This document shows, piece after piece, positions 20,510-57,035 of a DNA stretch of 59,123 nt (within the stretch, counting starts at the first letter, position 1; the number at the start of each line of letters is the position of its first letter). The position numbers and the translations under genes are program-made. The stretch comes from Planotetraspora silvatica (GTDB lineage Bacteria > Actinomycetota > Actinomycetes > Streptosporangiales > Streptosporangiaceae). Under the pieces are notes generated by a model. The model was not told the origin of the DNA. It did not search any database and worked only from the letters and a program-made list of their open reading frames with translations. The stretch is from assembly GCF_016863315.1 (NCBI RefSeq), contig NZ_BOOQ01000043.1, forward strand, positions 1 through 59,123, read 5' to 3'.

Positions 20510-20862
20510 GTGATCATGCACACATTCGTGCGATGCCCCACCGACCTGCGCCTCTTTCAACCGTGATCATGCACAGATTCGGAGAATGCCCCTACCACCT
20601 GCGACTCTTCTGTTCGTGATCATGCACAGGTTCGGCGCGACCACCGGCGACCTGTGCTTTTCTGCTGCGTGATCATGCACACCCAGGCCTACTGCATGAT
20701 CACGGAAGGCGTTCCCCCAGCTCGTACGGCACGCAAGCGAACCTGTGCATGATCACGAAAACAGTCTGCGCAGCTCAAGGACTCCAACCCCGAATCTGTG
20801 CATGATCACGACAAGGAGTCACGCAGCTCAAGGGGCCTGATCACGAACCTGTGCATGATCAC
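20510..20862. repeat. 53-bp periodic inverted repeat array 1 (4 + 4 boxes)
   Basis: Boxes reading GTGATCATGCAC on the plus strand start at 20510, 20563, 20616 and 20669. The reverse complement (GTGCATGATCAC) ends at 20703, 20756, 20809 and 20862; every step is exactly 53 bases. In most units the box continues AGRTTCG, and positions 33-41 carry YGASCTGSG: CGACCTGCG in the left arm and TGAGCTGCG in the right arm (read in unit orientation). The innermost boxes face each other around 20686 and can form a hairpin. The array lies between convergent genes and covers the last 11 codons of the acetoacetyl-CoA synthetase frame. Confidence 0.95.
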
Positions 20863-22813
20863 GCGGAGGGTGCGGGGGGCACGGGGGGTGGAAATGGCGG
20901 AGGACCTCTGGGTTGGCCATGGCGTCGGGGTTGGCGGCCTGCTCGACGGGTGTCCCGAGAAGGATCTTCCGTACCGGGATCTCCAGCTTCTTACCGGACA
21001 ACGTCCGGGGGATGCCGGGGACCTCGTGGATCTCGTCGGGCACGTGCCGCGGGGACAGCTCGCTTCGCAGCGCCCCCTTGAGCCGGCTCACGAGATCGTC
21101 GGAGAACGCGCCGCCCTCAGCCAGCGTGACGTACAGCAGGAGACGGCCCTCCTGTCCGAGCCGTCCGGTGTCGATCACCAGGCTGTCGGCGATCTCCTCG
21201 AACCGCTCGACGACCCGGTAGAACTCGCTGGTGCCCATCCGGACGCCACCCCGGTTGAGGGTCGAGTCGGACCGCCCGTAGATCACGCAACTCCCGTCGG
21301 GGTTGAGCTTGATCCAGTCGCCGTGCCGCCAGACGCCGGGGTAGTCGGCGAAATAGGACTCGCGGTAGCGGTCACCGGACGGGTCGTTCCAGAACATGAC
21401 CGGCATCGAGGGCATGGGTTGCGTCACCACGAGTTCGCCCACCTCGCCGATCACGGACGCCCCGGACGGGTCGAACGACTCCACCATCGCCCCGAGACAC
21501 CGGCACGGGATGACACCTGCCCTGACCGGCAGCGACGGCACCCCGCCCACGAAACCCGTGCAGACGTCCGTGCCCCCGGAGAACGACCCGAGCTGCACAT
21601 CGGCCTTGACGTCGGAGTAGACCCACGCGAACCCCTCCGGCGGCAGCGGCGATCCGGTCGAGCCGATCCCCTTCAGCCGTGAAAGGCCCGTCGGCTTCAG
21701 CCCCGCCTTCATCGAGGCGACGATGTACGGCGCGCCCGTGCCGAAGTAGGTGACCCCCTCCTCGTCCGCCAGCCTCCACAGGGCGTCGGGCCCGGGATGG
21801 GCCGCGCTGCCGTCGTAGAGGACGACGGTGGCGCCCACGAGAAGGCCGCCGATGAGGTAGTTCCACATCATCCAGCCGGTCGTGGTGTACCAGAAGAACA
21901 CATCCCCGTCGCCGAGGTCCTGGTGGAAGGAGAGCGACTTGAGGTGTTCGAGCACGATTCCGCCGTGCCCGTGCACGATGGGCTTGGGCAGGCCGGTCGT
22001 GCCCGAGGAGTACAGCACCCACAGCGGGTGCCCGAACGGGACCGGCTCGAACACGAGCTCGCCGGTCTCACCGCTGAGGTCCTCCCAGGTCAGTCCCCCC
22101 TCCCCAGTACGGCTCTCGCCGACGACTGAGGCGACGGATCCCAGATGGGGGATCCACACGGTCGCCGCGAGGGTGGGCAGCTTGGCCGCGATCTCGCGGA
22201 CGACGCCCGAGCGGTCGAAGGCCTTGCCGCCGTACCGGTACCCGTCGACCGCGATGAGCACCTTGGGCTCGATCTGGGTGAACCGGTCGATGACGCTCGG
22301 CGCGCCGAAGTCCGGCGAGCACGAGGACCAGATGGCCCCGAGCGAGGCGGTGGCCAGGAAGGCGATCAGCGCCTCGGGGATGTTGGGGACGTACGCCGCC
22401 ACCCGGTCGCCACGCCCCACCCCGAGTCTGACCAGCCCCGCGCGCACCCGGCCGACCTCTTCGCGCAGGTGCCCGAGCGTGTACGTCCGCCGATTCCCCG
22501 CTTCATCGCGAAAAATCACAGCAAGGTGGTCGGAGTCGCCGCGCAACGCATTGGCGGCGTAATTGATCGTGGCTCCGGTGAACCATCGGACGTCCGGCAT
22601 CGTCCCACTGATGACGGGCCCGTCACCACGCTCCCCCACCACGCCGAAGTAGTCCCACACCGACGTCCAGAAGTCGGCCGGATGGTCGACCGACCACTGC
22701 CAGATGTCGTCGTACGTCCCGGACCGCCCGAGCCGGTCCGCGTAGCGCGTCACCCGAGCGTCGCGGACGATCTCCGGCGTCGGTTCCCAGAGCAGAGCGC
22801 CTTCCTCAACCAT
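20828..22813 (-). CDS. acetoacetyl-CoA synthetase
   Basis: 661 residues of the ANL (acyl-CoA synthetase) family, acetoacetate-CoA ligase type. The AMP-binding motif is YSSGTTGLPKPIVHGHGG, with GSTGSPLPPEGF, FSGGTDVCTGF and the hinge/A8 region YGRSDSTLNRGGVRMGTSE; the catalytic lysine lies in RTLSGKKLEIPVRK. It activates acetoacetate with ATP and CoA for use in lipid or ketone-body metabolism. The ATG at 22813 has AAGGA in front. Family similarity ends around residue 641 (EVLRHF); the Pro/His-rich tail and the final RDHAQVRDQAP are read from flanking DNA and the 53-bp repeat. Confidence 0.92.
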   Translation of the reverse strand: MVEEGALLWEPTPEIVRDARVTRYADRLGRSGTYDDIWQWSVDHPADFWTSVWDYFGVVGERGDGPVISGTMPDVRWFTGATINYAANALRGDSDHLAVIFRDEAGNRRTYTLGHLREEVGRVRAGLVRLGVGRGDRVAAYVPNIPEALIAFLATASLGAIWSSCSPDFGAPSVIDRFTQIEPKVLIAVDGYRYGGKAFDRSGVVREIAAKLPTLAATVWIPHLGSVASVVGESRTGEGGLTWEDLSGETGELVFEPVPFGHPLWVLYSSGTTGLPKPIVHGHGGIVLEHLKSLSFHQDLGDGDVFFWYTTTGWMMWNYLIGGLLVGATVVLYDGSAAHPGPDALWRLADEEGVTYFGTGAPYIVASMKAGLKPTGLSRLKGIGSTGSPLPPEGFAWVYSDVKADVQLGSFSGGTDVCTGFVGGVPSLPVRAGVIPCRCLGAMVESFDPSGASVIGEVGELVVTQPMPSMPVMFWNDPSGDRYRESYFADYPGVWRHGDWIKLNPDGSCVIYGRSDSTLNRGGVRMGTSEFYRVVERFEEIADSLVIDTGRLGQEGRLLLYVTLAEGGAFSDDLVSRLKGALRSELSPRHVPDEIHEVPGIPRTLSGKKLEIPVRKILLGTPVEQAANPDAMANPEVLRHFHPPCPPHPPRDHAQVRDQAP

Positions 22814-22875
22814 GTGTCCATCCTTACGAGGCGGACGGCGTATGTCACCGTCACCGCCCACATAGAAACCAGCTG

Positions 22876-23064
22876 TCATATGTGTGCGCTCAGGTGGTCG
22901 ATCGCGATCCGCGCGGCGGACCCGATCGCGGCGTCCGCCCGGGGCTGGTTCTGGGCCGTCCCGGACGAGCGGGTGAAGGTCGCGACGGCGTACCGGCCTC
23001 CGTCGGGGTGCTCGACGACACCGATCTCGCTGCGGAGTGTGGGCGGCGTCCGGTCTCGAAACCG
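22876..23064 (-). pseudogene. C-terminal fragment of a class A beta-lactamase-like serine hydrolase
   Basis: An open frame encodes GRFRDRTPPTLRSEIGVV followed by EHPDGGRYAVATFTR and ends NQPRADAAIGSAARIAIDHLSAHI. This is how the last 60 or so residues of the beta-lactamase/D,D-peptidase-like hydrolase family usually look. The SxxK and SDN parts are missing: upstream sequence leads directly into the HAD gene. It is best read as a gene remnant, or as a small ORF derived from one. Confidence 0.55.
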
Positions 23065-23137
23065 ACCGCACGTCGTCGAACGGAAACTCCGAAGCACACC
23101 CGGAGCGGCCGCGCTTCCTCGACGCGCTCTGACGCGC

Positions 23138-23932
23138 TCAGCCGGCCTTGCGGTCGGCGGGGCTGGTGAGCCGCGCGACGGCGGCCACGACTTCCGAGGC
23201 GTTCGTCAGGTCGGGGAGCACTATGTCGGCGCCGGCCTCGTGCAACTCGGCCGCCATGGAACGGCCCGAGGCGACGGCGATCACCGCGGCCCCGCCGATC
23301 CTGGCCGCCTGCACGTCGCGGGTCGAGTCGCCGATCAGCACGGTGTTCTGCGCCGTGAAGGGCGCACCGTACTTGGTCTTGGCCCTTCCCTGCGCCACCT
23401 GGAGGAGGGTCGCCTTGGGGTAGACCTCCTCGCCGTAGCCGCCCACCTCGAAGTCGACCCACTTGTTCAGGCCGAAGGCCGTCAGCTTGTGGACGGCGTT
23501 GCCCTTGATGGTCCCGGTCAGCACGGACTGGACGGCCCCGTCGAGCCGGGACACGGCAGTGAGCGCCTCCTTGGCGCCGGGCATCATCCGGCCCTCCTTC
23601 GCCAGTCGCTTGTGCTTGGCGGCGAAGCTGACGGCGAGCGCGTCGAGGAACTTGGGCAGGTGCTGATCCTCGACCACGATGCCGTTGATGGCCAGCGTCT
23701 CGAAAATGATCTCGGAGTCCGGGCGGCCCATCGCCGGAGCGAGCTTGACCAGCGGTCGGCCGGTCACCATCCGGAACGCGTCCGCGTAGGCCTCGCGGGT
23801 GACGATGGTCGCGTCGACGAGAGTGAGATCGACGTTCCAGAGGACGAGACGGTTGATAATGGCCTCCGTGGGGGATTCGGCATGGCTCGTGCCCAAGGGT
23901 ACGGCTATCACCCGGTCATGAGGACCTGTCAT
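23138..23932 (-). CDS. HAD-superfamily protein with Asn in place of the nucleophile Asp
   Basis: About 264 residues. HAD motif I reads LVLWNVDLTLVD: the first Asp of DxD is Asn33 (codon AAC). Motif II (VLTGT), motif III lysine (VYPKATLL) and motif IV (LIGDSTRDVQAAR) are intact. Relatives normally have WDVDxTL, so catalysis through a phospho-aspartate should be lost or strongly reduced. The start is uncertain: ATG 23932 is used, with no good ribosome site; ATG/GTG choices nearby differ only in a poorly conserved N-terminus. It is followed upstream on the same strand by a second HAD gene. Confidence 0.8.
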   Translation of the reverse strand: MTGPHDRVIAVPLGTSHAESPTEAIINRLVLWNVDLTLVDATIVTREAYADAFRMVTGRPLVKLAPAMGRPDSEIIFETLAINGIVVEDQHLPKFLDALAVSFAAKHKRLAKEGRMMPGAKEALTAVSRLDGAVQSVLTGTIKGNAVHKLTAFGLNKWVDFEVGGYGEEVYPKATLLQVAQGRAKTKYGAPFTAQNTVLIGDSTRDVQAARIGGAAVIAVASGRSMAAELHEAGADIVLPDLTNASEVVAAVARLTSPADRKAG

Positions 23933-24050
23933 ACCGAGGTTGTAGCCGCCCGGCCCGTTCTCACACCCCTGGTCACGCACGGGGTCACCCTGCGGGTCAG
24001 CGGTGGGTCACAGAGAACGGGCGAGAGCCGTCCACGGACCGCTTCCTCGG

Positions 24051-24686
24051 TCAGACGACCCTGCCGAGGGCGTCGGCGAGCGAGTCGACGACCGGGAAGC
24101 CCAGGGCCTCCAGCTCCGACCGTCTGGTCATGCCGCCGGTGTACAGGATCGCCTGCGCGCCGACGTGCTGGGCCGCGTGCCCGTCGTCGACGCTGTCGCC
24201 GATGACCACCACGGTCTCCGGGTCGAGGCCGAGGGCTCGCAGGTGGGCGACCATGTGCTCGGCCTTGGTGCCGCCCGAGGCGGAGCGCAGTCCGTCGACC
24301 CGGGCGAAGTGCCCGCCGATGCCGAACTCGCCGACCTTGGGGACCAGCCGGTCATGGGCCCACATGGACAGCAGCGACTGCGTCCGGCCGGAGCCCTCCC
24401 ACTCCCGGAGGCAGGACTGCGCGTCCTTCGCCAGCTCACAGGCCAGCATGAGCTGGTGGTAGTGCTCGTGGAACGCGACGTCGAGCCGCTCCCACTCGCC
24501 CTCGTCGAGCGGACGGCCGAGCATGCGCTCGTAGGCCACCCAGATCGGCCGGGTGTAGACCTCGCGGAAGGAGTCCGCGTCGAAAGGGGCCAGCCCGTAG
24601 GGGAGGAAGACCTCGTTGGTGGCCCCGACCACCGCGTCTATGTCGTGGAACAGCGTGCCGTTCCAGTCCCAAACTATGTGTCTCAT
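24051..24686 (-). CDS. HAD-family hydrolase (phosphoglycolate phosphatase-like)
   Basis: 211 residues with all HAD motifs: VWDWNGTLFHD (nucleophile and acid/base Asp), LLSMWAHD, GTKAEHM (lysine) and VVIGDSVDDGHAA. The cap segment is helical (subfamily I). The substrate cannot be told; small phosphosugars or phosphoglycolate are usual. The ATG at 24686 is 10 bases after TAAGCT, so it may be leaderless. It lies 118 bases upstream of the Asn-variant HAD gene in the same direction. Confidence 0.85.
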   Translation of the reverse strand: MRHIVWDWNGTLFHDIDAVVGATNEVFLPYGLAPFDADSFREVYTRPIWVAYERMLGRPLDEGEWERLDVAFHEHYHQLMLACELAKDAQSCLREWEGSGRTQSLLSMWAHDRLVPKVGEFGIGGHFARVDGLRSASGGTKAEHMVAHLRALGLDPETVVVIGDSVDDGHAAQHVGAQAILYTGGMTRRSELEALGFPVVDSLADALGRVV

Positions 24687-24737
24687 ATCGCTCTAGAGCT
24701 TAAGGGCGACCTGTGACAAGTCCGTGAACGTTCCAGG

Positions 24738-25244
24738 TCAACTCAGCAAGTCGGGGATTTCCTGCGTGGCGTACCACATCAGTTCGTGGTCCTCCGCGCC
24801 GTCGACGGCGAACTGTGCGTCGTCGTCCCCGTGGTCGGCTGCGGGCAACGCGGCCACGGCCGCCTCGACGTCGGCGGCGGCGGACAGGTCGTCGACGTGG
24901 ATGGACGCGAGCTCGGCGATCGGGACCGACTTCAGCAGGCGCACCCGCGCGCGTTCCTCCAGGTCGGTGCCCATCGTCACGATGCTGTCCGGAATCTCGG
25001 CCGCGACGACGACCCGCCGCGCGGCGACCTCGACGCCGTCCGCGCGGTCGGCGGCGAGCATCCGGAGGGAGGCGCGGGCGGCCTCGGTCAGCGCGACGTA
25101 CTCGAGTTCCTCCGTGTCACCCGAGGCGTACCACTCGACGAGTGCCGGGGTCACGGCGTAGCCGGTCAGCGGGGCCGGTCCCAGCTCTCCCGCGGCGACC
25201 ACCCGGGCCAGTGCGGGGAGCGTGCACGGCAGGTACACGCGCAT
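24738..25244 (-). CDS. conserved actinobacterial protein of the DUF6912 type
   Basis: 168 residues starting MRVYLPCTLPALARVVAAG, with TGYAVTPALVEWYASGDTEELEYVALTEAARASLRML, which I recognise as the pattern of a conserved actinobacterial family of unknown function. Acidic overall, no signal or membrane segment. It is 24 bases downstream of a HAD gene on the same strand, so probably co-transcribed. Confidence 0.75.
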   Translation of the reverse strand: MRVYLPCTLPALARVVAAGELGPAPLTGYAVTPALVEWYASGDTEELEYVALTEAARASLRMLAADRADGVEVAARRVVVAAEIPDSIVTMGTDLEERARVRLLKSVPIAELASIHVDDLSAAADVEAAVAALPAADHGDDDAQFAVDGAEDHELMWYATQEIPDLLS

Positions 25245-25268
25245 GTGTCTTCTCTACTTCCTCCCGGC

Positions 25269-25922
25269 TCACGCCCGGAACGGCAGGCTGAAAAGCTTCT
25301 CCATCTCGCTGATCGTCGTGACGGCCTCGCGGTGATGGACGCCGACGATGCCCAGAGCACGGGCGGCCTCGATGTTGGCCTCGATGTCGTCGATGAACAC
25401 GCACTGCTGCGGCTCCAGGGCGACCAGCCCGAGCGCGTGGTGGAAGATGCGCGGCTCCGGCTTGCGCATGCCGACCTCACCCGAGATGACCACGGCGTCG
25501 AAGAGCTCGTCCCAGGCGTCGCGGGGATAGTCGTTGGCCCACGAGTTCGACAACAGGCAGGTGGTGAGCCCGGCCGCGCGGGCCCGCCGCACCATCTCGT
25601 TCATCTCCTCGACCGGCTGGAACCCGGCGAACATGCGGGTGAGCAGCCCGTCGGCCTCCGGTGGCACGCCGTCCAGCGTCCGCAGCCGGGCGGCCAGGTC
25701 CCGTTCGAACTCGGCGGCCGGGACCTCCCCGCGCTCCAGCGCGTGGATCGGGTTCTCCGCGCCGCCGTCCGCACCCGTCTCGTACGCGTGCATGACGAGG
25801 TCGCGCATGACGTCGCGGTAGTGCACCGAGTCGATCCGGTCGGCCTCGAGCCAGTGGACGATGGAGTCGCCCAGGCTCGTGGTGAGGACACCACCCCAGT
25901 CGATCAGAACGCCCTTGAGCAC
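25269..25922 (-). CDS. HAD-IA family hydrolase
   Basis: 217 residues. Motif I is LIDWGGVLT: the second Asp is Gly, as is normal in the GxVL subgroup (YihX-like). Motif II is LLSNSWAND, motif III is GMRKPEPRIF and motif IV is VFIDDIEANIEAARALG. The GTG at 25922 has GGGAGG 4-5 bases upstream, better than the earlier ATG-like start of the open frame. Substrate unknown; sugar or nucleotide phosphates are likely. Confidence 0.88.
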   Translation of the reverse strand: MLKGVLIDWGGVLTTSLGDSIVHWLEADRIDSVHYRDVMRDLVMHAYETGADGGAENPIHALERGEVPAAEFERDLAARLRTLDGVPPEADGLLTRMFAGFQPVEEMNEMVRRARAAGLTTCLLSNSWANDYPRDAWDELFDAVVISGEVGMRKPEPRIFHHALGLVALEPQQCVFIDDIEANIEAARALGIVGVHHREAVTTISEMEKLFSLPFRA

Positions 25923-25980
25923 GGTACCTCCCGTTGACACGCGTTACAGGATATGCGGGTCGCCGCCGGGAGCGAACCGT

Positions 25981-27300: not shown

Positions 27301-27381
27301 GTCTTTACGTTATCGGCGCTCTCCCGCCAACCGTGCGCGAACGCGCATCGGGGACCCCACACACGGTCCCGGTCGCGACGC

Positions 27382-29115: not shown

Positions 29116-29120
29116 GGGGA

Positions 29121-29378
29121 TCAGGAGGCCGCGGCGATCTCGGCGAGCCGGTCGAGCACCTCGTCGGCGCCCTCCCCCTCAGCCGAGATGACGATGGACT
29201 CGCCCTGCCTGACGTCCAGCGCCAGGACGGACAGGATGCTCTTCGCGCTCACCGGCTGACCTCCCGCCTTCGCGACGGTGACGTCGAACGGCGCCTTCGC
29301 CGCGGTCTGCACGAACGTCGCCGCCGGACGGGCGTGCAGACCCACCTCGGACTCGACACTGACCTTGCGCTCGGCCAC
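29121..29378 (-). CDS. ptsH: PTS phosphocarrier HPr
   Basis: 85 residues. The active histidine is in VGLHARPAA and the Ser-type regulatory site region in KSILSVLALD. It passes phosphate from enzyme I to EIIA. The GTG at 29378 is chosen: AAGGAGG lies 5 bases upstream, whereas the ATG at 29393 overlaps that ribosome site. A DasR-type operator lies 30-45 bases upstream. Confidence 0.95.
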   Translation of the reverse strand: MAERKVSVESEVGLHARPAATFVQTAAKAPFDVTVAKAGGQPVSAKSILSVLALDVRQGESIVISAEGEGADEVLDRLAEIAAAS

Positions 29379-34246: not shown

Positions 34247-34257
34247 CTGCGTTTCAC

Positions 34258-41251: not shown

Positions 41252-41878
41252 ACAAAGCCCCCCTTCGCATATCGACTGTGACTCTGCGGCACCCGTCCGT
41301 CCGACCTGGTCTTCGTCCCCACATCCGCCTGCTGAGGGGTTCGCAGCTCAGTTGCCACTACTGCCCTTCTCCTCTTGCGGGGGACATCTGGACCCCCGGG
41401 AAGGCAGGACTTACCTCTAAGCCGCACCGTGATCGGTCGACCAAGAGTCGCCTTACGTGGACCGTTTCGCCTGCGGCTGGCATCGGCTAGCCAGACCGAT
41501 CCCCTGACGGGGAGAGGCCCGGTGCAACCACGGACCCGGACGGGTGCCATGTCTGCACGCTAGTCCCTAGCGGCCCGAATGTCAGCCAGGAGATCCGCGA
41601 AACGATCACTGCCCGTGATGTCGTCACGGGCGGATGCGCCGCCGGTGATGATCACCGGATCGTTGGATCCCCGCGCGCGGCGCGCTCCTTCATCCCGGTG
41701 AGCTGGCTGGACCTCCTGGACGGGTCACACAGGTATGTCCTGGCGGTCAGCATGAGAATTGGCCAACCTTTACTCTCCGTTACAAAGAGAGACTTGACGG
41801 TCCCGGCGTGTCGCGGTTCGCTCCGGCCGTAAGCCGCCGGGCGGCACGGGGTGAGCGCACGGCCGTCCGGCGGACGGA
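41252..41878. other. long intergenic region between hpf and comF with palindromic hairpins
   Basis: 627 bases without a convincing gene. Visible structures: GGGGG-N9-CCCCC (about 41379-41397) in the hpf leader; GCCCGTGA-TGTCG-TCACGGGC (41611-41631); the perfect palindrome CCGGTGATGATCACCGG (41642-41658); and CTCTC-N9-GAGAG (41773-41791). The hairpins near 41611-41658 may end comF transcription; the rest is probably the hpf promoter and a leader of up to 300 bases. Confidence 0.5.
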
Positions 41879-48770: not shown

Positions 48771-48805
48771 GGGGCTGCGCAGACCCCTCCACACGAGCCG
48801 CAGCC

Positions 48806-49453
48806 GTGACCCTCTTCCTGTCGCCGTCCCTCGCACCGCTTGGGGCCCCCGTCGACATCGGGCGTGACCAGGCGCAGCAGGAGGCGGCGCGGGAACTGCT
48901 CAAGTCGGGCTACCAGCACGAGTCCCTGTTCGATCGGATAGGCCGTGTCATCCAGCAGTTCCTCGACGATCTCCTGGGCATAGGTGGAAACGCGAGCGGC
49001 AGCGCGATCTCGCTCATCCTCATCGTGGTCATCCTCGTGATCCTCGGCGCTCTGCTGGTGTGGGCCCTGCGCCGCACATCGCGCGGCAGCCGTACAGGCG
49101 TCGTCGTCTTCGGCGGGCAGGCGCGGACGGCCGCGGAGCACCGGGCGGAGGCCGAACGGCGGGCGTCGGCGGGCGACTGGACCGGAGCCGTCCAGGAACG
49201 TCTCCGGGCGATCGCCCGAGGGCTCGAAGAACGTGCCATCGTCAGCCCGCTGCCTGGCCGTACCGCCCTCGAACTGGCCCAGACCGCGGGACAGGCGCTG
49301 CCTTCGCACGCCTCCGACCTGCGGTCGGCCGCCCGGCTCTTCGACGACGTGACCTACGGCGAGGTGGCGGGGACGCCCGAGGCCTACGCCGTTCTCAAGG
49401 ACCTCGACGAGCGCCTGATGGCCGCCCGCGTCGCGCTGGAGGCCTCCGCATGA
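48806..49453 (+). CDS. DUF4129-domain membrane protein
   Basis: 215 residues with one central membrane helix (SLILIVVILVILGALLVWAL) and a C-terminal DUF4129 segment (AEAERRASAGDWTGAVQERLRAIARGLEERAIVSPLPGRTALELA ... ARLFDDVTYGEVAGTPEAYAVL). It starts with GTG inside the previous stop and its own stop overlaps the next start (ATGA): tight coupling in a four-gene operon with DUF4350, moxR and DUF58 genes. Confidence 0.87.
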   Translation: MTLFLSPSLAPLGAPVDIGRDQAQQEAARELLKSGYQHESLFDRIGRVIQQFLDDLLGIGGNASGSAISLILIVVILVILGALLVWALRRTSRGSRTGVVVFGGQARTAAEHRAEAERRASAGDWTGAVQERLRAIARGLEERAIVSPLPGRTALELAQTAGQALPSHASDLRSAARLFDDVTYGEVAGTPEAYAVLKDLDERLMAARVALEASA

Positions 49454-50670
49454 CGCTCCAGACGACCGAACGGTCGTACTCCGTCTCGCCCACGGCCGCA
49501 AGCATCTGGAAGCGGGGGCGCGCGATCGTCCTGGTCGCCGTCATCGTCGTGGTGGCGGCGGTCGTCCCGGTGTTGCTGCCGTCCGGGTCGACCGGCGGCG
49601 GCAGCGCGCTCGACCCCGGCGACTCCTCCCTCGCCGGCAGCAAGGCCCTCGCCCAGGTGCTGGGCGCGCATGGAGTCTCCGTCCAGCGCGTGGACGACGT
49701 CTCGACGGCGCTGGCCGCGCTCGGCACGGACGGCCAGCTTCTCATCACGGAGGCGACGGACCTGACGTCGAGCGAGGCCGGCCGGATCGCCGCCGCGCCA
49801 GCCGACAGGCTGATCGTCGGGCAGGTGCCGTACCTCGACGTGCTGGCGCCCGGCGTCATCAGCGAGGTCGGCGGCACCTCCTCACGGTCGCGGCCGCCGT
49901 CGTGCGGGCTGCGCGAGGCGAACGTGGCGGGCAGCGCCTACATGGGCGGCTCCGCGTTCACCGGCCCACCCGGATCGACGGGGTGCTACCCGTCGGACGG
50001 CAAGCCGACTCTCGTCCGCTACACGGTCGACGGCCGTACGGTGACCGTCGTGGGCGACGGCCAGTTCATGACGAACCTCAGGCTGGCCGAGGACGGGAAC
50101 GCCGCCCTCGCCATGAACCTCGCGGGCACGAAGCCGCGGCTCGTCTGGCTGGTGCCGCCGGCCGAACCCGACCAACCGTCCGGCCCGGACGGGTCCGGTG
50201 GGTCCGACGGGTCCGGTGGGTCCGACGGGGCCGGTTCCGAGCCGAAGAGCCTCGGCGAGCTGATCCCTTCGGGGGTGGGCTGGGCGATCGTCGAGCTCGT
50301 CGTCGCGCTGGGCGTGGTCGCCCTGTGGCGTGGACGACGGCTCGGGCCTGTCGTCGCCGAGCGCCTTCCGGTGGTCGTGCGAGCGGCCGAGACCGTGGAA
50401 GGCCGGGGACGCCTCTACCGGGCACGCCGCGCACGGGACCGGGCGGCCCTCGCGCTCCGCGCCGCCACGATCGACCGCATCACCCCGCGCCTCGGACTTC
50501 CCCGCACGGCGACACCCGATGAGATCGTCACAGGGGTGTCCGCGCGAACCGGAGAGGATCCGGAGCAGGTACGGCCGGCTCTGTTCGGCGGCGCTCCCGC
50601 CGACGACGCCGGGCTCGTCGCCCTGGCCGGATACCTCGACACACTCGAAAGGCAGGTACAAGACTCGTGA
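49450..50670 (+). CDS. DUF4350-domain membrane protein
   Basis: 406 residues. N-terminal helix IVLVAVIVVVAAVVPVLLPSG, an outer domain (ALDPGDSSLAGSKALAQVLGAHGVSVQRVDDV ... LLITEATDL), a Gly/Ser/Asp repeat segment (DGSGGSDGSGGSDG), a second helix (GWAIVELVVALGVVALWRGRRLGP) and a cytoplasmic C-terminus. The DUF4129-DUF4350-MoxR-DUF58 gene set is common in actinobacteria; the MoxR ATPase probably acts as chaperone for an envelope complex. Confidence 0.88.
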   Translation: MTLQTTERSYSVSPTAASIWKRGRAIVLVAVIVVVAAVVPVLLPSGSTGGGSALDPGDSSLAGSKALAQVLGAHGVSVQRVDDVSTALAALGTDGQLLITEATDLTSSEAGRIAAAPADRLIVGQVPYLDVLAPGVISEVGGTSSRSRPPSCGLREANVAGSAYMGGSAFTGPPGSTGCYPSDGKPTLVRYTVDGRTVTVVGDGQFMTNLRLAEDGNAALAMNLAGTKPRLVWLVPPAEPDQPSGPDGSGGSDGSGGSDGAGSEPKSLGELIPSGVGWAIVELVVALGVVALWRGRRLGPVVAERLPVVVRAAETVEGRGRLYRARRARDRAALALRAATIDRITPRLGLPRTATPDEIVTGVSARTGEDPEQVRPALFGGAPADDAGLVALAGYLDTLERQVQDS

Positions 50671-51671
50671 CGACACCTGGATCCGGAGCCTTCGGAGCCG
50701 GAGCCCCGCAGGCCTCCACACCGGGGGCCGACGCGGCGCGGGAGGCGCTCGCCACGCTGCGGGCCGAGGTCGGCAAGGCCGTGGTGGGGCAGGACGCCAT
50801 CGTCACCGGCCTCGTGATCGCCCTGTTGTGCCGTGGGCACGTGCTGCTCGAAGGCGTCCCCGGCGTGGCCAAGACGCTCATGGTCCGCGCCCTGTCCGCC
50901 ACGCTGTCGCTCGACTTCAAGCGGGTGCAGTTCACCCCCGACCTGATGCCGGGCGACGTGACCGGCTCGCTGGTCTACGACGCCAAGTCGTCGGAGTTCG
51001 AGTTCCGCGAGGGGCCGGTCTTCACGAACCTGCTGCTCGCCGACGAGATCAACCGAACGCCGCCCAAGACCCAGGCCGCTCTGCTCGAGGCCATGGAGGA
51101 GCGCCAGATCAGCGTCGAGGGCTCGGCCCGCATGCTCCCCGACCCGTTCATCGTGGCGGCGACCCAGAACCCCATCGAGTACGAGGGCACCTACCAGCTC
51201 CCCGAAGCCCAGCTGGACCGGTTCCTGCTCAAGCTGACCGTGCCGCTGCCTCCCCGGGAGCAGGAGATCGCGGTGCTCGAACGGCATGCCCTCGGCTTCG
51301 ACCCGCGCGACCTGACGCACCTCAAGCCGGTCGCGTCGGCGGCCGATCTGGAGGCCGGCCGGGAGGCCGTCAAGCAGGTGCACGTGGCTCCGGAGGTGCT
51401 CGGGTACATCGTCGACCTGGCCAGGGCGACGCGTCAGTCGCCGTCGTTGCAGCTCGGGGTGTCACCTCGAGGCGCGACGGCCCTGCTTGCGGCCGCTCGG
51501 GCGTGGGGTTGGCTGTCCGGCCGTTCGTACGTCACCCCTGACGACGTGAAGGCCCTGGCCCGGCCGGCTCTGCGGCACCGCGTCCAGTTGCGGCCGGAGG
51601 CGGAGCTCGAGGGCGCCACCCCCGACGGCGTCCTGGACGGCATCCTGGCCTCAGTCCCCGTCCCCCGCTGA
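50667..51671 (+). CDS. moxR: MoxR-family AAA+ ATPase
   Basis: 334 residues. Walker A GVPGVAKT, Walker B LLLADEINRTPPKTQAALLEAMEE, sensor 1 FIVAATQNPIEYEGTYQLPEAQLDRFLLK, arginine finger region and sensor 2 VSPRGATALL. MoxR proteins act as chaperones for neighbouring VWA/DUF58 proteins. GTG start overlapping the preceding stop. The partner DUF58 gene follows, but a 53-bp repeat array is inserted between them. Confidence 0.93.
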   Translation: MTTPGSGAFGAGAPQASTPGADAAREALATLRAEVGKAVVGQDAIVTGLVIALLCRGHVLLEGVPGVAKTLMVRALSATLSLDFKRVQFTPDLMPGDVTGSLVYDAKSSEFEFREGPVFTNLLLADEINRTPPKTQAALLEAMEERQISVEGSARMLPDPFIVAATQNPIEYEGTYQLPEAQLDRFLLKLTVPLPPREQEIAVLERHALGFDPRDLTHLKPVASAADLEAGREAVKQVHVAPEVLGYIVDLARATRQSPSLQLGVSPRGATALLAAARAWGWLSGRSYVTPDDVKALARPALRHRVQLRPEAELEGATPDGVLDGILASVPVPR

Positions 51672-51686
51672 CCCGCCCCCTCTGGC

Positions 51687-51804
51687 GTGATCATGCACAG
51701 GTTCGTGGACAGGCCGCCTGACCTGGCATTACTCCGGGCGTGATCATGCACAAGTTCGCGATCAAGTGGGCTGACCTGGGAAAATGGAGTTCGTGATCAT
51801 GCAC
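51687..51804 (+). repeat. 53-bp periodic repeat array 2 (3 boxes, one orientation)
   Basis: Boxes GTGATCATGCAC start at 51687, 51740 and 51793, exactly 53 bases apart. The first two continue ARGTTCG and have TGACCTGG at positions 33-40 of the unit, as in arrays 1 and 3. No inverted half is present. The array lies in the 186 bases between moxR and the DUF58 gene, which are usually adjacent or overlapping. Confidence 0.93.
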
Positions 51805-51810
51805 TGTCGG

Positions 51811-51840
51811 GCGGGAGCCGTACGAGCGGGAGCCGTACAA
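51811..51840 (+). repeat. two 15-bp tandem repeats beside array 2
   Basis: GCGGGAGCCGTACGA followed by GCGGGAGCCGTACAA, directly upstream of the DUF58 ribosome site. Confidence 0.7.
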
Positions 51841-51857
51841 GAAGGAAGGGCGGCACC

Positions 51858-53234
51858 ATGGCGCTGACAGGACGTGCGGGGCTGCTCGCGGCCCTCGGCG
51901 CCCTCGTGGTGCTCTTCGCCCCGCGGCCGGGGCTCGCGGTGCTGGGCATCGTGCTGCTCCTCGCCTTCCTGATCGTGGTCGACCTGATCTTCGCGGGCGG
52001 AGTGCGCCCCCTGCGCTTCAGCCGCGAGGGCGAGCGGCTCGTACGGCTCGGCCAGTCGGTCACCGTCGGCCTGATCGTGGAGAACCCCGGCACACGCCGG
52101 GTCCGCGGGGTGTTGCGCGACGCCTGGCCGCCCTCGGCGGGAGCCGCGCCGCGGCGACTCGCCATCGACGTGCCGAGAGGCGAGCGCCGGCGCCTCACCG
52201 TCACACTCACGCCGACCAGGAGGGGCGATCGTGAGGCGGTCACGGTGACGGTCCGCTCACTGGGGCCGCTCGGCCTGGCCGGGCGGCAGGGGCGGCATCG
52301 GGTTCCGTGGTCGGTACGGGTGTTGCCCCCGTTCCTGAGCCGCAGGCATCTGCCCGCCAAGCTGGCCCGCCTGAGGGAGCTGGACGGTCAGCACCCCGCG
52401 CTCGTGCGGGGCCAGGGCACCGAGTTCGACTCGCTGCGGGAATACGTGGTCGGCGACGACGTGCGGTCCATCGACTGGCGGGCCAGCGCGCGGCGCAACG
52501 ACGTCGTCGTGCGCACCTGGCGCCCGGAACGTGACCGCCGGGTCCTCATCGTGCTCGACACCGGCCGCACCTCGGCGGGCCGGGTGGGCACGGCTCCGGT
52601 CCCGACAGCGGCCGGACAGGCCGAAGCCGACCGAACGGACCAGGGGGACGGCAGGCGGCGGCCGCCTCCCGGATGGCCCCGGCTGGACTGGTCGATGGAC
52701 GCCGCGTTGCTGCTGGCCGCCCTCGCCGCCCGTGCCGGCGACCGCGTCGACTTCCTCGCCTACGACCGCGCGGTCCGTGCCTGGCTGTCGGGGGCGGCGC
52801 GTACGGAACTGCTGTCGTCCCTGGTCAACGTCATGGCGCCGATCGAGGCCGAGCTCGTCGAGGCGGACTCGCCCGGCATGGTGGCGGCCGTCCTCGCCCG
52901 GGCGAAGCGGCGTTGCCTGGTGGTGCTGCTGACCGACCTCAACGCCACCGCCATGGAAGAGGGCCTCCTGCCCCTGCTCCCGCAGTTGTCCTCGCGGCAC
53001 CTGGTGCTCGTGGCCGCCGTCGCCGATCCGCGCGTCGCGGCCATGGCCTCGGGCCGGGATACGTCGGAGCAGGTCTACGACGCGGCGGCGGCCGAGCAAC
53101 TGCGGGGCGAGAGGCGGCGGATCACGTCCTTGCTGCGCCGTCACGGCGTCGAGGTCGTGGACGCCCTCCCCGAGGACGTCGCCCCCGCGCTGGCGGACGC
53201 CTACATCGCGCTGAAGGCGGCGGGCCGTCTCTGA
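51858..53234 (+). CDS. DUF58-domain protein
   Basis: 458 residues. Two N-terminal membrane helices (ALTGRAGLLAALGALVVLFAP and LAVLGIVLLLAFLIVVDLIF), a beta-rich region, then the DUF58 core EFDSLREYVVGDDVRSIDWRASARRNDVVVRTWRPERDRRVLIVLD, which is a von Willebrand A-like fold with the start of a MIDAS-like site. An extra Ala/Asp/Pro-rich insertion (about 255-275) precedes the second part. Expected partner of MoxR. The ATG has AAGGAAGGG upstream. Confidence 0.88.
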   Translation: MALTGRAGLLAALGALVVLFAPRPGLAVLGIVLLLAFLIVVDLIFAGGVRPLRFSREGERLVRLGQSVTVGLIVENPGTRRVRGVLRDAWPPSAGAAPRRLAIDVPRGERRRLTVTLTPTRRGDREAVTVTVRSLGPLGLAGRQGRHRVPWSVRVLPPFLSRRHLPAKLARLRELDGQHPALVRGQGTEFDSLREYVVGDDVRSIDWRASARRNDVVVRTWRPERDRRVLIVLDTGRTSAGRVGTAPVPTAAGQAEADRTDQGDGRRRPPPGWPRLDWSMDAALLLAALAARAGDRVDFLAYDRAVRAWLSGAARTELLSSLVNVMAPIEAELVEADSPGMVAAVLARAKRRCLVVLLTDLNATAMEEGLLPLLPQLSSRHLVLVAAVADPRVAAMASGRDTSEQVYDAAAAEQLRGERRRITSLLRRHGVEVVDALPEDVAPALADAYIALKAAGRL

Positions 53235-53242
53235 CGCGTGCG

Positions 53243-54235
53243 TCAGCTGGTGGGGGCCAGGTCCGGGGCGAGCTCGATGTCGCCCGTCTCGTCCTGCCGT
53301 ACGGCCCGGCGCCCGAAGACGATCACGTAGGCGAGGAAGAGGGTCTCGGCGAGCGCGCCGATGCCGATGCGGGCCCATGTGGGCAGGCCGGACGGGGTGA
53401 CGCCGGCCTCGATGAGGCCGGAGACGAAGAGCACGGCGACCAGGCCCAGCGCGACGCTCATCACGGCCCGCCCCTGCTCGGCCAGCGCCTCCCCGCGCCG
53501 CCGCGGCCCGGGGTCGATGACCGTCCAGCCGAGGCGCATCCCGACCCCGGCGGCGAGGAAGACGGCGGTGAGCTCCAGCAGGCCATGCGGAAGGATCAGC
53601 CCCCAGAAGATGTCGGCCTTGCCATGCGCCGCCATCAGACCGCCGAGGAGGCCGCCGTTCGCCGCGTTCTGGAACAGGATGTAGGGAATCGGTAGGCCCA
53701 GCAGGACCGCGGAGGCGATGACCTGCATGCTCACGTACGCGTTGTTGATCCACACCTGTCCGGCGAACGACGCGGCCGGATTCTCCGAGTAGTAGTCGGC
53801 GAAGTCGTGGTCGACCAGTTGCCTGATGTCCTCGGGGGTGCCGATCGCGGCCTGGACGTCGGGATTCTTGGCTATCCAGACGCCGATGACCCACGCGACC
53901 ACCAGCGAGGCGAGCGTCGCCCCCAGCCACCACCGGCGCGCCCGGTAGGCGACCACGGGGAATGACACGGTGAAGAACCGGGCGACCTCACGCCAGGCCG
54001 GGCTGTGCGCCCCCGTGACGGCCGAGCGGGCCCGGGCGACCAGCGTGGACAGGCGGCCGACCAGGATGGCGTCCCTGGAACCGGACCGGACGATGGACAG
54101 GTGCGTCGCGGCCCGCTGGTACAACTCGACCAGTTCGTCGACCTCCGCGCCGTTCAGCGAGCGACGCCGCCGGACCAGGTCCTCAAGCCGGTCCCAGGTC
54201 GGCTTGCTGGCCGCGACAAACGCATCGATGTCCAC
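53243..54235 (-). CDS. SpoIIM-family membrane protein
   Basis: 330 residues. Cytoplasmic N-terminus (about 1-95), then about five membrane helices with conserved HGLLELTAVFLAAG and NAAYVSMQV-like NAYVSMQVIASAVLLG segments typical of the stage II sporulation M / DUF95 family. It usually sits next to MoxR, DUF58 and RDD genes, as here; in actinobacteria it may serve the envelope complex rather than sporulation. GTG start, 7 bases after TAGGGT: leaderless transcript likely. Confidence 0.88.
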   Translation of the reverse strand: MDIDAFVAASKPTWDRLEDLVRRRRSLNGAEVDELVELYQRAATHLSIVRSGSRDAILVGRLSTLVARARSAVTGAHSPAWREVARFFTVSFPVVAYRARRWWLGATLASLVVAWVIGVWIAKNPDVQAAIGTPEDIRQLVDHDFADYYSENPAASFAGQVWINNAYVSMQVIASAVLLGLPIPYILFQNAANGGLLGGLMAAHGKADIFWGLILPHGLLELTAVFLAAGVGMRLGWTVIDPGPRRRGEALAEQGRAVMSVALGLVAVLFVSGLIEAGVTPSGLPTWARIGIGALAETLFLAYVIVFGRRAVRQDETGDIELAPDLAPTS

Positions 54236-54242
54236 AGATCAA

Positions 54243-54269
54243 ACCCTATCGACCGCCGCACAGTAGGGT
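54243..54269. promoter_or_regulatory. divergent pair of -10 elements for leaderless transcripts
   Basis: TAGGGT on the minus strand (54248-54243) ends 7 bases before the SpoIIM-like GTG; TAGGGT on the plus strand (54264-54269) ends 6 bases before the RDD GTG. Neither gene has a ribosome site. The 40-base intergenic region thus seems to hold two mirror-image promoters. Confidence 0.5.
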
Positions 54270-54275
54270 GCGAGT

Positions 54276-55277
54276 GTGTCAGAAGTCGTGACGGGTGAGG
54301 CCGTCGTCGTCGAGGTGCGGATCGCCCAGCTGCCCAGCCGCGCAGCGGCCTTCATCATCGACTGGCTCGTGCAGGTGGCCGCCCTCATCGTGATCTCCCT
54401 GCTGCTCGCCAACGCGACCATCATCACCGACGGCGCGCTCGCCGCCGGCCTGGGCATCCTGTTCTCCGCGCTGGTCCTGGTCGGCTACCCGGTGATCTTC
54501 GAGACGGTCAGCAGAGGACGGAGCCTGGGCAAGCTCGCGCTCGGGCTCAGAGTCGTCAGCGAGGACGGCGGACCCGAGCGCTTCCGCCAGGCCCTCTTCC
54601 GCGGACTGGCCGGCCTGGTGGAGTTCTGGACGCTGTCCGGCGCTCCCGCGCTCATCACCTCGCTGATCAACCAAAAAGGCAAGCGACTCGGCGACATATT
54701 CGCGGGCACCATCGTCATCGGCGAGCGCTCGCCGCGACAGGCGCCGCCGCCCCCGATGCCGCCGCAACTCGCCGGATGGGCCTCCTCGCTGCAGCTCTCC
54801 CAACTCCAGGACGAGCTGGCCAACACCGCCCGGCAGTACCTCTCCCGCTGGCACCAGTTGTCCCCGAACGCCCAACACGACATGGGGATGCGAATCGCGG
54901 GCCAGGTGAGCGCCTGCGTCGCGCCGCCGCCCCCGCCCGGCGTCCCGCCGTACGCTTACCTCGCCGCCGTGCTCGCCGAGCGCCGCCGCCGGGAGGAACT
55001 GCGGCTCGCGCAGACCCGGGGTCCCGCCTCGCCGTACGGCCGGGCTTCGCAGTGGAATCAAGGGGCCTCTCAGTCGGTCGCCCCGCCGTACAACGGAGCG
55101 CCCGGATCACCCGCGTTCCCGTACGGCACGGCGTCGGCGCACCCGTCCGGCGTGACACCGGCGCACCCGTCGGGCATGGCACCTCGGAACCCCGGCCAGG
55201 AGACTCCCGGTTCCGTCCCGAACCCGCCCGCGGAGCCGGCCGGTCCGACACCGGGAGGATTCGTCCCCCCGACATGA
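54276..55277 (+). CDS. RDD-family membrane protein
   Basis: 333 residues. RDD domain in the first 150: QLPSRAAAFIIDWLVQVAALIVISLLL, second helix LAAGLGILFSALVLVGYPVIFETVSRGRSLGKLALGLRVV, third FRGLAGLVEFWTL. The C-terminal part is a soluble helical segment followed by a Pro/Gly/Ser/Ala-rich tail with PYxGAPGSPAFPYG and AHPSG repeats. Encoded beside SpoIIM, DUF58 and MoxR proteins, a recurring neighbourhood in actinobacteria. Confidence 0.88.
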   Translation: MSEVVTGEAVVVEVRIAQLPSRAAAFIIDWLVQVAALIVISLLLANATIITDGALAAGLGILFSALVLVGYPVIFETVSRGRSLGKLALGLRVVSEDGGPERFRQALFRGLAGLVEFWTLSGAPALITSLINQKGKRLGDIFAGTIVIGERSPRQAPPPPMPPQLAGWASSLQLSQLQDELANTARQYLSRWHQLSPNAQHDMGMRIAGQVSACVAPPPPPGVPPYAYLAAVLAERRRREELRLAQTRGPASPYGRASQWNQGASQSVAPPYNGAPGSPAFPYGTASAHPSGVTPAHPSGMAPRNPGQETPGSVPNPPAEPAGPTPGGFVPPT

Positions 55278-55286
55278 GGTGTAGAC

Positions 55287-55338
55287 CCAGACCATAGGGG
55301 CATTGGTCTGGAATGCAGGTCATGGGGCCATGCCTGCT
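55287..55338 (+). other. two adjacent hairpins after the RDD gene
   Basis: CCAGACCA ... TGGTCTGG (55287-55311) and GCAGGTCATGG ... CCATGCCTGC (55315-55338). They precede the main terminator and may protect or process the 3' end. Confidence 0.5.
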
Positions 55339-55354
55339 AATGGGGTTGAGGTGA

Positions 55355-55405
55355 GGCACGACCAGGTGCGGAGGAGAGGCCGCACGGGTCGTGCCCACCT
55401 TTCTT
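55355..55405 (+). terminator. rho-independent terminator of the RDD gene
   Basis: GGCACGACC and GGTCGTGCC form the outer stem, with an inner GTGCGG/CCGCAC stem, followed by CACCTTTCTTTT. Confidence 0.75.
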
Positions 55406-55423
55406 TTCAGCTCGTTTGTGAGC

Positions 55424-56671
55424 TCAGGAGCCGACCCGCCAGGAGTGGAGATAGTCCTCCTGCTCGGAGGTGAGCGCGTCGATCGTGATCCCCGCCGCTC
55501 CCAGTTTCAGTCTCGCCACCTGGAAGTCGACCTCCGCCGGAACGTCGTAGACGCCGGGCGTCAGCCGTACGGCCTCTTGGGCGAGCCATGCGACGGCGAG
55601 GGCCTGGGCGGAGAAGGACATGTCCATCACGGCGGCCGGGTGCCCCTCGGCGGCGCTCAGGTTGACCAGGCGGCCTTCGGCGAGGAGGAGCAGTCGCCTG
55701 CCGTTCTCCAGGACGTATTCATCCGTGTTCGGGCGGATCCCGAAATGCACGGTCTGCGCCATCTCTTCCAGGGCGCGGACGTCGATCTCGACGTCGAAAT
55801 GACCGGCGTTGGCGAGGATCGCGCCGTCCTTCATGGCGGCCAGGTGCTCGGCGCGGATCACGTCGCGGTTGCCGGTGACGGTTACGAACACGTCGCCGAT
55901 CTCCGCGGCCCGCCACATCGGCTGCACGTCGTATCCCTGAAGCGCCGCGTCCAGGGCCTTCACCGGGTCGATCTCGGTGACGACGACCCGTGCGCCCAGG
56001 CCCTTGGCCCGCTCCGCGACACCCCGGCCGCAGAAGCCGAAGCCCGCGACGACGACCGTACGCCCCGCCAGCAGGATGTTCGTGGCCCGCATGATGCCGT
56101 CGAGGGTGGACTGGCCTGTGCCGTACCTGTTGTCGAACATCCGCTTGGTGCGGGTGTCGTTGACCGCGACCATGGGGAACCTGAGGGCGCCCTCGGCCGC
56201 CATCTGGCGGAGCCGGATGATGCCCGTCGTGGTCTCCTCGCAGCCGCCGATGACCTCGTCGAGCAGTTCGACTCGTTCGGTGTGCAGGATGTTGACCAGG
56301 TCGCAGCCGTCGTCGAGCACGATGTTCGGCGCGATGTCGAGCGCCCGATGGATGTGCCGGTAGTAGGTGTCCCTGTCCACCCCGGCCCGGGCATGTACGG
56401 CGATGCCGTACGTGGACAGCGCCGCGGCCACGTCGTCCTGGGTGGACAACGGGTTGGAGGCGGCCAGCGCGATCTCGGCGCCACCCGCCTTGAGCGCGCC
56501 CATGACCACCGCGGTCTCCGCGGTCACGTGCAGGCAGGCGGCGATGCGCAGTCCGTCCAGCGGCCTGTCCTGGGCGAACCCCGCCCCGATGGCCTCGAGC
56601 ACGGGCATGGACCTGGCGGCCCAGCCGATCCGCCGCTCCCCCGCCTCCGCCATCCCGCCGTGATCATGCAC
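55424..56671 (-). CDS. second S-adenosylhomocysteine hydrolase-like enzyme (archaeal/thermophile type)
   Basis: About 415 residues. The SAH hydrolase fold is clear: CLHVTAETAVVMGAL, FPMVAVNDTRTKRMFDNRYGTGQS (catalytic Lys and Asp), NAD-binding VVVAGFGFCGRGVA and ANAGHFDVEID. It lacks the insertion and the C-terminal KPDHYRY found in the main enzyme and ends in EQEDYLHSWRVGS, as in archaeal and Thermotoga-type proteins, one of which (in Methanocaldococcus) is known to prefer S-inosylhomocysteine. The start is uncertain: the GTG at 56671 has GAGG five bases upstream but lies inside the 53-bp repeat; the ATG at 56653 is the next choice. Confidence 0.88.
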   Translation of the reverse strand: MHDHGGMAEAGERRIGWAARSMPVLEAIGAGFAQDRPLDGLRIAACLHVTAETAVVMGALKAGGAEIALAASNPLSTQDDVAAALSTYGIAVHARAGVDRDTYYRHIHRALDIAPNIVLDDGCDLVNILHTERVELLDEVIGGCEETTTGIIRLRQMAAEGALRFPMVAVNDTRTKRMFDNRYGTGQSTLDGIMRATNILLAGRTVVVAGFGFCGRGVAERAKGLGARVVVTEIDPVKALDAALQGYDVQPMWRAAEIGDVFVTVTGNRDVIRAEHLAAMKDGAILANAGHFDVEIDVRALEEMAQTVHFGIRPNTDEYVLENGRRLLLLAEGRLVNLSAAEGHPAAVMDMSFSAQALAVAWLAQEAVRLTPGVYDVPAEVDFQVARLKLGAAGITIDALTSEQEDYLHSWRVGS

Positions 56672-57035
56672 AGATTCCTCGATTCCCGCCGCCACCTGCG
56701 CCAACCACCCGCGTGATCATGCACAGGTTCGCCGTTACCCGCATTGACCTGGCCCTTCACTGAGCGTGATCATGCACAGATTCGGAAACGACCATCCTGA
56801 CCTGCGAAAATACAGTTTGTGATCATGCACCGTACGGCCACGCTTTGCGCGTGACCGTACGGCACCGCATGATCACGAACCTCGCAGCCCCGGCTCATGC
56901 ACCACTTTCACGAAGGTGTGCATGATCACGATCGGCGACGTGGCCGCTCAGCGGCCATTCGACCGAATGTGTGCATGATCACGCACAGGAGCGTCGCAGC
57001 TCAGAGGGCATGCGCACGACCCTGTGCATGATCAC
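56660..57035. repeat. 53-bp periodic inverted repeat array 3 (4 + 4 boxes)
   Basis: Boxes GTGATCATGCAC start at 56660, 56713, 56766 and 56819; inverted boxes end at 56876, 56929, 56982 and 57035, all in steps of 53. Left-arm units carry (T/C)CACCTG or TGACCTG and right-arm units TGAGC(T/C)G(C/G)G at positions 33-41. The centre (56831-56867) is a further inverted repeat, CCGTACGGCCACGC against GCGTGACCGTACGG, so the middle can form a long stem-loop. The array lies between two SAH hydrolase genes on the same strand and reaches into the start of one. Confidence 0.95.

Follow-up and report, generated by a model that had tools for sequence, protein, structure and literature searches.

Phased arrays of a 53-bp repeat at gene ends in Planotetraspora silvatica and related actinobacteria, and their possible role as protein-bound barriers

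Three intergenic regions of a Planotetraspora silvatica contig (NZ_BOOQ01000043.1, 59,123 nucleotides; this whole stretch is referred to here as the window) contain arrays of a 12-bp box, GTGATCATGCAC, repeated at intervals of 53 bp. The window holds 17 exact copies and two degenerate ones (at 20692, with one mismatch, and 56865, with two), and our scan bears out the 19 copies, 17 of them exact and in three places, that an initial annotation of this DNA had reported. When up to two mismatches are allowed, 25 box matches are found in the window against 4.1 expected. The constant spacing claimed in the same annotation is also real: all neighbouring same-strand boxes within each arm of the window arrays are exactly 53 bp apart.

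Array 1 (20510..20862) consists of two facing arms between convergent genes, one on the plus strand (18036-20483, NuoF-like/ferredoxin) and one on the minus strand (20828-23071, AMP-binding, acetyl-CoA-synthetase-like). Its plus arm has boxes at 20510, 20563, 20616 and 20669 and its minus arm at 20692, 20745, 20798 and 20851, with an 11-bp centre between them (20681-20691). Array 2 (51687..51804) is a single plus-strand arm with boxes at 51687, 51740 and 51793. It lies between two plus-strand genes, MoxR-type AAA (50667-51671) and DUF58 (51858-53234), and its first box starts 15 bp past the stop codon of the former. Array 3 (56660..57035) again has two facing arms, with boxes at 56660, 56713, 56766 and 56819 on the plus strand and at 56865, 56918, 56971 and 57024 on the minus strand; the centre (56831-56864) contains a CCGTACGG hairpin. 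The flanking genes (57135-58562 and 55424-56653, S-adenosylhomocysteinase-like) are in tandem, both on the minus strand, and the plus arm opens with a box 6 bp ahead of the likely start codon (56653) of the latter. The description of these arrays as intergenic is right overall, apart from minor overlaps: in array 1, the box furthest out on the minus arm covers the last codons of the minus-strand open reading frame 20828-23071, and the TGA of a box can serve as the stop of a gene. Short tandem repeats adjoin two of the arrays. The 15-bp repeat CCCAGCGTGATCACA (20474..20516, plus strand, 2.9 copies), which holds a partial box, is found at the outer edge of array 1, and the 21-bp repeat GATCACGCCCTACAAGCCTGG (57030..57128, plus strand, 4.7 copies) begins inside the outermost box of array 3. 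Such short repeats may arise from the edges of some arrays; CGTGATCA occurs only twice in the 100-bp flanks of the retrieved arrays.

The box is one part of a larger conserved unit (numbered from the first G of the box). A second block, CYGACCTGCGC, lies at 20541..20551 on the plus strand in the first unit of array 1 and reappears in phase, somewhat altered, in the remaining full units of the window. It had been placed at unit positions 33-41, and it extends slightly further, to about 32-42. Among 521 distinct units from Planotetraspora, including "Planotetraspora sp. A-T 1434" (G105; classed in a separate genus, g65, of the scheme used), the constrained positions are the box, A13, TTC(G) at 16-19, CC at 28-29, CYGACCTGCGC at 32-42, AYnC at 45-48 and C53. 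The statement that positions outside the two boxes vary freely thus holds only in part, given the constraint at 13, 16-19, 28-29, 45-46, 48 and 53. Mutual information in these units peaks at adjacent bases, namely 44-45 (AA/GA/TT), 14-15 and 22-23, and the top eleven pairs are all neighbours; among the 40 strongest pairs, the distant ones have low values and show pairing in at most 59% of units. Because this dependence is mostly neighbour-to-neighbour and without pairing, it favours double-stranded DNA read by a protein. An RNA structure within the unit (AGGT/ACCT pairing) was rejected, as the 521 units show no covariation, and it is also contradicted by a comparison of lineages. The second block is kept in Planotetraspora, A-T 1434 and the genera g80 and g69 (546, 109, 33 and 30 distinct units compared, respectively), and the right half of the unit is likewise retained across all four, while the left half varies, taking the forms GTGATCATGCACaggTTCG; ...TTCC; GTGATCTTGCA with an A/T triplet and CTCGCA; and GTGATCTTGCAGtttgtcgca. 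In g80 and g69 the left half has changed while the right half stayed. An extra GATCA half-box, 18 bp past the first, is seen at positions 21-26 in 55 of the 546 Planotetraspora units, and GATCA occurs anywhere in the filler in 61 of them against 7 expected.

The 53-bp interval is close to five turns of B-DNA (52.5 bp at 10.5 bp per turn) and is held in each lineage. Of the eight commonest spacings in Planotetraspora, 53 bp has 574 pairs, 52 bp 18 and 54 bp four, the others (21-62 bp) having at most five each; these pair counts include duplicates, some loci having been retrieved twice, while the unit sets are free of them. The corresponding counts are 122 (53 bp), 19 (52 bp), four (51 bp) and one (54 bp) in A-T 1434, 33 (53 bp) and two (51 bp) in g80, and 33 (53 bp), five (54 bp) and four (52 bp) in g69. 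Arms of two to six boxes number 17, 71, 85, 44 and 6, respectively. An array is either a single arm or two inward-facing arms with, as a rule, one switch of orientation. In 30 two-arm centres (orthologs included), the facing boxes are offset by 22-23 bp in 10 cases and by scattered distances of 12 to 150 bp in the rest.

The arrays are found throughout the P. silvatica genome (G000, 8.66 Mb), in which 708 box pairs are spaced by 53 bp (up to three mismatches) against none for a reversed control. The first 400 kb of its contig C2 contain 51 such pairs in 13 arrays, or about 3.9 pairs per array, and from this ratio, rather than from a direct count, we estimate about 180 arrays per genome. A genome scan yielded at least 93 array stretches, loci selected for holding arrays; among the matches listed, all were in records named Planotetraspora. 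The box is confined to arrays to an unusual degree. In 1.26 Mb of scanned DNA (420 kb of P. silvatica, 382 kb of P. mira (G004), 400 kb of P. kaengkrachanensis (G003) and the window), all 184 exact boxes are inside arrays and 180 are outside predicted genes, the other four being inside; 40 permuted 12-mers have a mean of 0.2 copies in the same DNA (maximum 2). Among 516 same-strand pairs within 400 bp of each other, 221 are exactly 53 bp apart and 478 fit a multiple of 53 to within 1 bp per unit. No unit scoring above 18 bits was found outside arrays in 859 kb of the P. silvatica genome or in 782 kb of P. mira and P. kaengkrachanensis. In P. phitsanulokensis (G002), which has shorter arrays, five such units lie outside arrays in 394 kb.

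The initial annotation had suggested searching this genome and related ones for the box at 53-bp spacing, with the idea of a conserved element to be dropped if the arrays were unique to the window or lost their spacing elsewhere. Neither is the case: pairs of GTGATCNTGCA (up to two mismatches) reveal the array design in 14 of the order's 345 genomes, marginally so in two, in a search that is blind to differing box forms. Two forms of the box, GTGATCATGCAC and GTGATCTTGCAG, occur among the array genomes. Pairs number 711 in P. silvatica, 726 in P. thailandica (G001), 187 in P. phitsanulokensis, 626 in P. kaengkrachanensis and 698 in P. mira (species labels as assigned). The remaining carriers are G105 (514), G243 (310), G120 (189), G115 (76), G242 (72), G111 (70) and G117 (51), and the marginal genomes are G121 (11) and G130 (2). 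A further 15 genomes have one or two matches, which we count as chance or decay, and 316 have none. A search with the full 12-bp box (up to three mismatches) matches 15 of the 345 genomes, namely those 14 plus G314, in which the two matches appear to be a coding repeat that fits by chance. Occurrence is patchy within genus g69, where five of 15 genomes carry arrays. In one 157-kb contig of an array-negative relative (G110), the box is not among the enriched 9-mers and no 53-bp peak appears among the distances listed. The g69 relative G121 has degenerate arrays at one locus (L259), whose appearance suggests that they decayed once the system was lost.

The arrays are inherited in place, at orthologous positions in four species. 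Of the 13 arrays in 400 kb of P. silvatica, 10 could be matched in P. mira and 11 in P. kaengkrachanensis, and every one of them is found there between the same two genes. In P. phitsanulokensis, seven of 10 matchable arrays are present in shorter form and three fall below the array criterion; by eye, one of these three sites has a facing box pair, one has box-like remnants and one has no trace. No matched gene pair was seen with an array in P. mira, P. kaengkrachanensis or P. phitsanulokensis that P. silvatica lacks. Between P. silvatica and P. mira, the box differs at 26 of 579 positions (4.5%), positions 13-19 at 30 of 252 and the second block at 32 of 403, compared with 13-15% in the filler (64 of 432 at positions 20-31 and 51 of 403 at 43-53) and 115 of 768 in the rest of the array-bearing regions. 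Gaps affect one of 2,070 unit positions, while outside the units 220 positions are gapped against 768 aligned. Between P. silvatica and P. kaengkrachanensis, differences are found at 49 of 584 box positions (8.4%), 112 of 380 in the second block and 164 of 414 and 143 of 391 in the filler; the 254 gapped unit positions in this comparison arise because whole units differ in number. Filler identity is 0.54 for adjacent units and 0.50 for units from different arrays. As units of the same array are nearly as unlike as those of different arrays, the arrays are not products of recent tandem duplication. Some units do appear to be recent copies, since 15-20% of comparisons within an array score above the 95th percentile for random pairs, where 5% are expected.

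Using gene calls from our own codon-score script (no annotation was used), we found 68 of 156 distinct arrays between convergent, 77 between tandem and 11 between divergent genes. The background of intergenic regions of at least 100 bp, which includes regions retrieved twice, comprises 194 convergent, 568 tandem and 327 divergent regions. When arrays are collapsed into 102 ortholog groups, the numbers are 49, 44 and nine, respectively. Arrays thus prefer convergent and tandem gene ends to divergent promoters. The median distance between a sense arm and the stop codon preceding it is 15 bp. Of 161 sense arms, 38 have a box whose TGA is itself the stop of the gene before it. As 53 is not divisible by three, three successive boxes give TGA in all three frames; any other spacing not divisible by three would do the same, so that three-frame stops do not explain the number 53. 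The eleven divergent arrays were checked for the gene of an autoregulated binder, and their neighbours are mostly ordinary-looking by eye. One of them (L228-L235, contig C3 of P. silvatica, about 83461-84626) adjoins a gene for a helix-turn-helix (XRE-like) regulator (C3a), which is a possible candidate for a self-regulated binder; another (C3b) adjoins a response regulator.

Inverted pairs of the box, GTGATCNTGCA-N4-30-TGCANGATCAC (11-bp ends), were also found as single palindromes in other genomes. Within the order, they number 119 in G037 (a different family), 43 in G078, 35 in G028, 13 in G130, nine each in G074 and G075, seven in G079 and three in G076; any match at all is found in 31 of 342 genomes, counting array genomes and those with one or two matches. 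Outside the order, seven of 296 genomes have a match (counting P. silvatica and G111), with 40 palindromes in G432, 12 each in G491 and G579, three in G373 and one in G414. The inner stems vary by lineage. At 41 listed places, 17 palindromes are between convergent and 17 between tandem genes, one is divergent and six could not be assigned; without array genomes and two double listings, 25 places remain (11 convergent, nine tandem, one divergent and four unassigned). At one locus of G028 (L300, 1501-1549), an identical 49-bp palindrome recurs about 220 bp further on, and several such close pairs are listed. We propose that the arrays may represent an expansion of a palindromic signal at gene ends (GTGATCATGCA...TGCATGATCAC), which is kept singly in other actinobacterial families.

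A spacing near whole helical turns, conserved boxes and divergent filler are together the features of a phased protein-binding array. The phase, the restriction of boxes to arrays, the split between conserved and drifting positions and the local dependence of bases fit a cooperative protein that binds double-stranded DNA, and the placement at gene ends fits a barrier to transcription or supercoiling. The arrays, their phase, relative constraint, placement and lineage distribution are shown here; that a dedicated protein exists, binds cooperatively and forms barriers is inferred. Our best explanation is that the 53-bp unit would be a composite site (GTGATCATGCAC, AnnTTCG, CYGACCTGCGC, AYnC) for one dedicated sequence-specific protein, and that the five-turn repeat would place neighbouring molecules on the same face of the helix for cooperative binding. 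Lone boxes are not used in the scanned DNA of the P. silvatica genome. The resulting nucleoprotein patches, of one arm or two inward-facing arms, are placed mainly at the 3' ends of genes and would most likely serve as barriers that stop or insulate transcription and supercoiling between neighbouring, especially convergent, genes. Judged from the sequences, the arrays are very probably protein-binding arrays. To this extent the protein-binding interpretation of the initial annotation is partly supported, the spacing, the contrast between box and filler and the unpaired local dependence favouring a five-turn-phased array over a simple duplication; the nucleoid, partition or restriction-type protein that it had suggested is conjectural. 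A function as barriers at gene ends seems to us to fall just short of an even chance, and the explanation as a whole, cooperative arrays of a dedicated protein that probably form gene-end barriers, is about evenly poised.

Several observations weigh against this explanation. Array-less intergenic regions differ by only 4.9% (1200 of 24,501 positions) between P. silvatica and P. mira and by 13.8% between P. silvatica and P. kaengkrachanensis, so that the conservation of the box is striking only relative to the filler of the arrays themselves. Of the 345 genomes of the order, 331 lack the pattern or have isolated matches, so that its function is dispensable in them. No protein that binds the arrays emerged from this analysis, and the A+T periodicity of the filler, at 10.6 bp, is no more than suggestive (p 0.05-0.13). 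One-arm arrays between tandem genes comprise 16 in sense and 10 in antisense orientation, which does not support a strictly polar terminator or strict polarity relative to transcription. Lastly, any tolerated intergenic insert would likewise sit away from promoters.

The main rival, which we consider rather unlikely, is that protein-bound arrays serve as anchors that organise or bridge the chromosome, gene ends merely offering space free of promoters. The lack of solitary sites in the scanned DNA of P. silvatica, P. mira and P. kaengkrachanensis, the estimated number of arrays per genome, their vertically inherited positions and the weak polarity would all suit such anchors, whereas the strong convergent excess and the sense arms abutting stop codons (at times sharing the TGA) hint at a link to transcript ends, as do the 11 of 25 places in array-less genomes at which same-box palindromes lie between convergent stops. 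It is improbable that the arrays are selfish or dispersed repeats without host function, of the kind of repetitive extragenic palindromes (REPs), bacterial interspersed mosaic elements (BIMEs) or miniature inverted-repeat transposable elements. Their high copy number, extragenic and 3'-biased location and patchy occurrence (as in g69) recall REPs, but the units are not palindromes, the filler drifts while the box is held, and no matched gene pair has an array in the other three species and not in P. silvatica. An origin by REP-associated tyrosine (RAYT-type) transposases was rejected, since the Y1 transposase family PF01797 is unmatched in eight of the 14 array genomes (G000, G002, G003, G004, G105, G115, G120 and G130); it is matched in the other six (G001, G111, G117, G121, G242 and G243), and overall in 15 of 37 genomes, array-negative ones included. 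A viral, plasmid or phage origin was likewise rejected: the pattern has no exact match in viral contigs, and blastn, which is blind to arrays with unrelated filler, gave no plasmid match for array 3 and no phage match for array 1, the one array compared in each case.

We give equally little credence to an RNA element of 3' untranslated regions, in which repeated RNA boxes would be joined by a central hairpin terminator. Nineteen two-arm centres do fold (median z-score -3.8), but three of them are weaker than -1.4 and the folding follows from the inversion of the facing boxes. One-arm ends fold no better than shuffles in 12 of 14 cases (median z-score 0.15), the other two reaching -3.6 and -4.1. 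In 27 palindromes of G078, partial inner pairing exceeds that of shuffled partners, which would favour RNA; 12 of the 27 are unpaired at one pair, and 10 of the 11 outer pairs are dictated by the search pattern. Units lack pairing covariation, arms also lie antisense to the neighbouring gene, and no terminator-like hairpin with a T run occurs at any of the window arrays. In the 12 nt after the 19 two-arm centres, 32 of 38 flanks have a longest T stretch of 0-2 and six have one of 3-4. An intrinsic terminator (a GC-rich hairpin followed by a T run) was consequently rejected for the window arrays, the 19 centres and the one-arm ends. In a small sample bearing on whether arrays take the place of hairpins, a strong stem is present in none of 13 one-arm array regions, compared with 30% of 74 convergent and 11% of 256 tandem regions that have no array. 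Least credible of all is a DNA-uptake or genome-tag sequence whose inverted pairs double as terminators. The uptake sequences of Neisseria and the Pasteurellaceae are 10-12-mers that form inverted pairs at gene ends, a resemblance to the 12-mer pairs seen here, but they are also abundant in coding DNA and unphased, whereas the arrays are phased and their boxes lie nearly all outside predicted genes. Uptake needs neither a fixed 53-bp phase nor a second block, and we rejected it because the over-representation of single copies, including in coding DNA, is lacking, all 184 exact boxes being in arrays.

BIMEs are the closest described kind of element, and REPs and BIMEs are located near gene ends. 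The arrays are similarly high-copy (708 pairs) and extragenic (180 of 184 boxes). They differ in that their unit is no palindrome, an inverted pair being formed only where two arms meet, in that they consist of 2-6 direct repeats at a fixed 53 bp whereas REPs alternate in orientation without regular spacing, and in that eight of the 14 array genomes have no match to a RAYT-type transposase. According to PMC2817692, REPs and BIMEs exceed 100 copies per genome, form extragenic composite clusters and are bound by proteins, and roles in chromosome organisation and transcription termination have been suggested for them. Among other systems to which the arrays may be compared, the sites parS, KOPS, matS and Chi are sequence-specific docking sites, mostly single and distributed genome-wide; in the scanned Planotetraspora DNA, P. 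phitsanulokensis excepted, no single sites were found. Iterons are repeated docking sites local to origins. The terminator repeats of eukaryotic ribosomal DNA (TTF-I/Sal box, Reb1) are repeated, oriented protein sites past genes that block polymerases; these belong to one eukaryotic locus family, in contrast to the very many bacterial loci, composite 53-bp unit and weak polarity seen here. A search of the open-access literature found no relevant description of GTGATCATGCAC, GTGATCTTGCA, TGATCATGCA or related topics. A Streptomyces coelicolor ArgR paper (PMC5839063) was set aside, as the portion consulted concerns ARG boxes and does not contain the 12-mer.

Two structured RNAs are also found in the window and are the only matches to curated Rfam families at gathering score, the arrays being unmatched. 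These are a transfer-messenger RNA gene on the minus strand (1891-2276, RF00023; ARAGORN tag ANNMRTEASQGSLALAA) and a raiA RNA motif, also on the minus strand (41292-41544, RF03072, 150 bits).

A broader proposal, which we regard as doubtful, is that the arrays form a boundary system: a lineage-specific protein, binding cooperatively at very many gene ends to five-turn arrays, often paired convergently, that would have arisen by expansion of GTGATCATGCA...TGCATGATCAC, would partition the chromosome into units of transcription or topology, in functional analogy to eukaryotic terminator or boundary factors. If the arrays are docking sites, they would point to an undescribed DNA-binding protein in this family and to a means of marking gene ends that is distinct from hairpin and Rho termination. 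With occurrence patchy in g69 and boxes nearly always confined to arrays, the protein and its function both lend themselves to direct testing.

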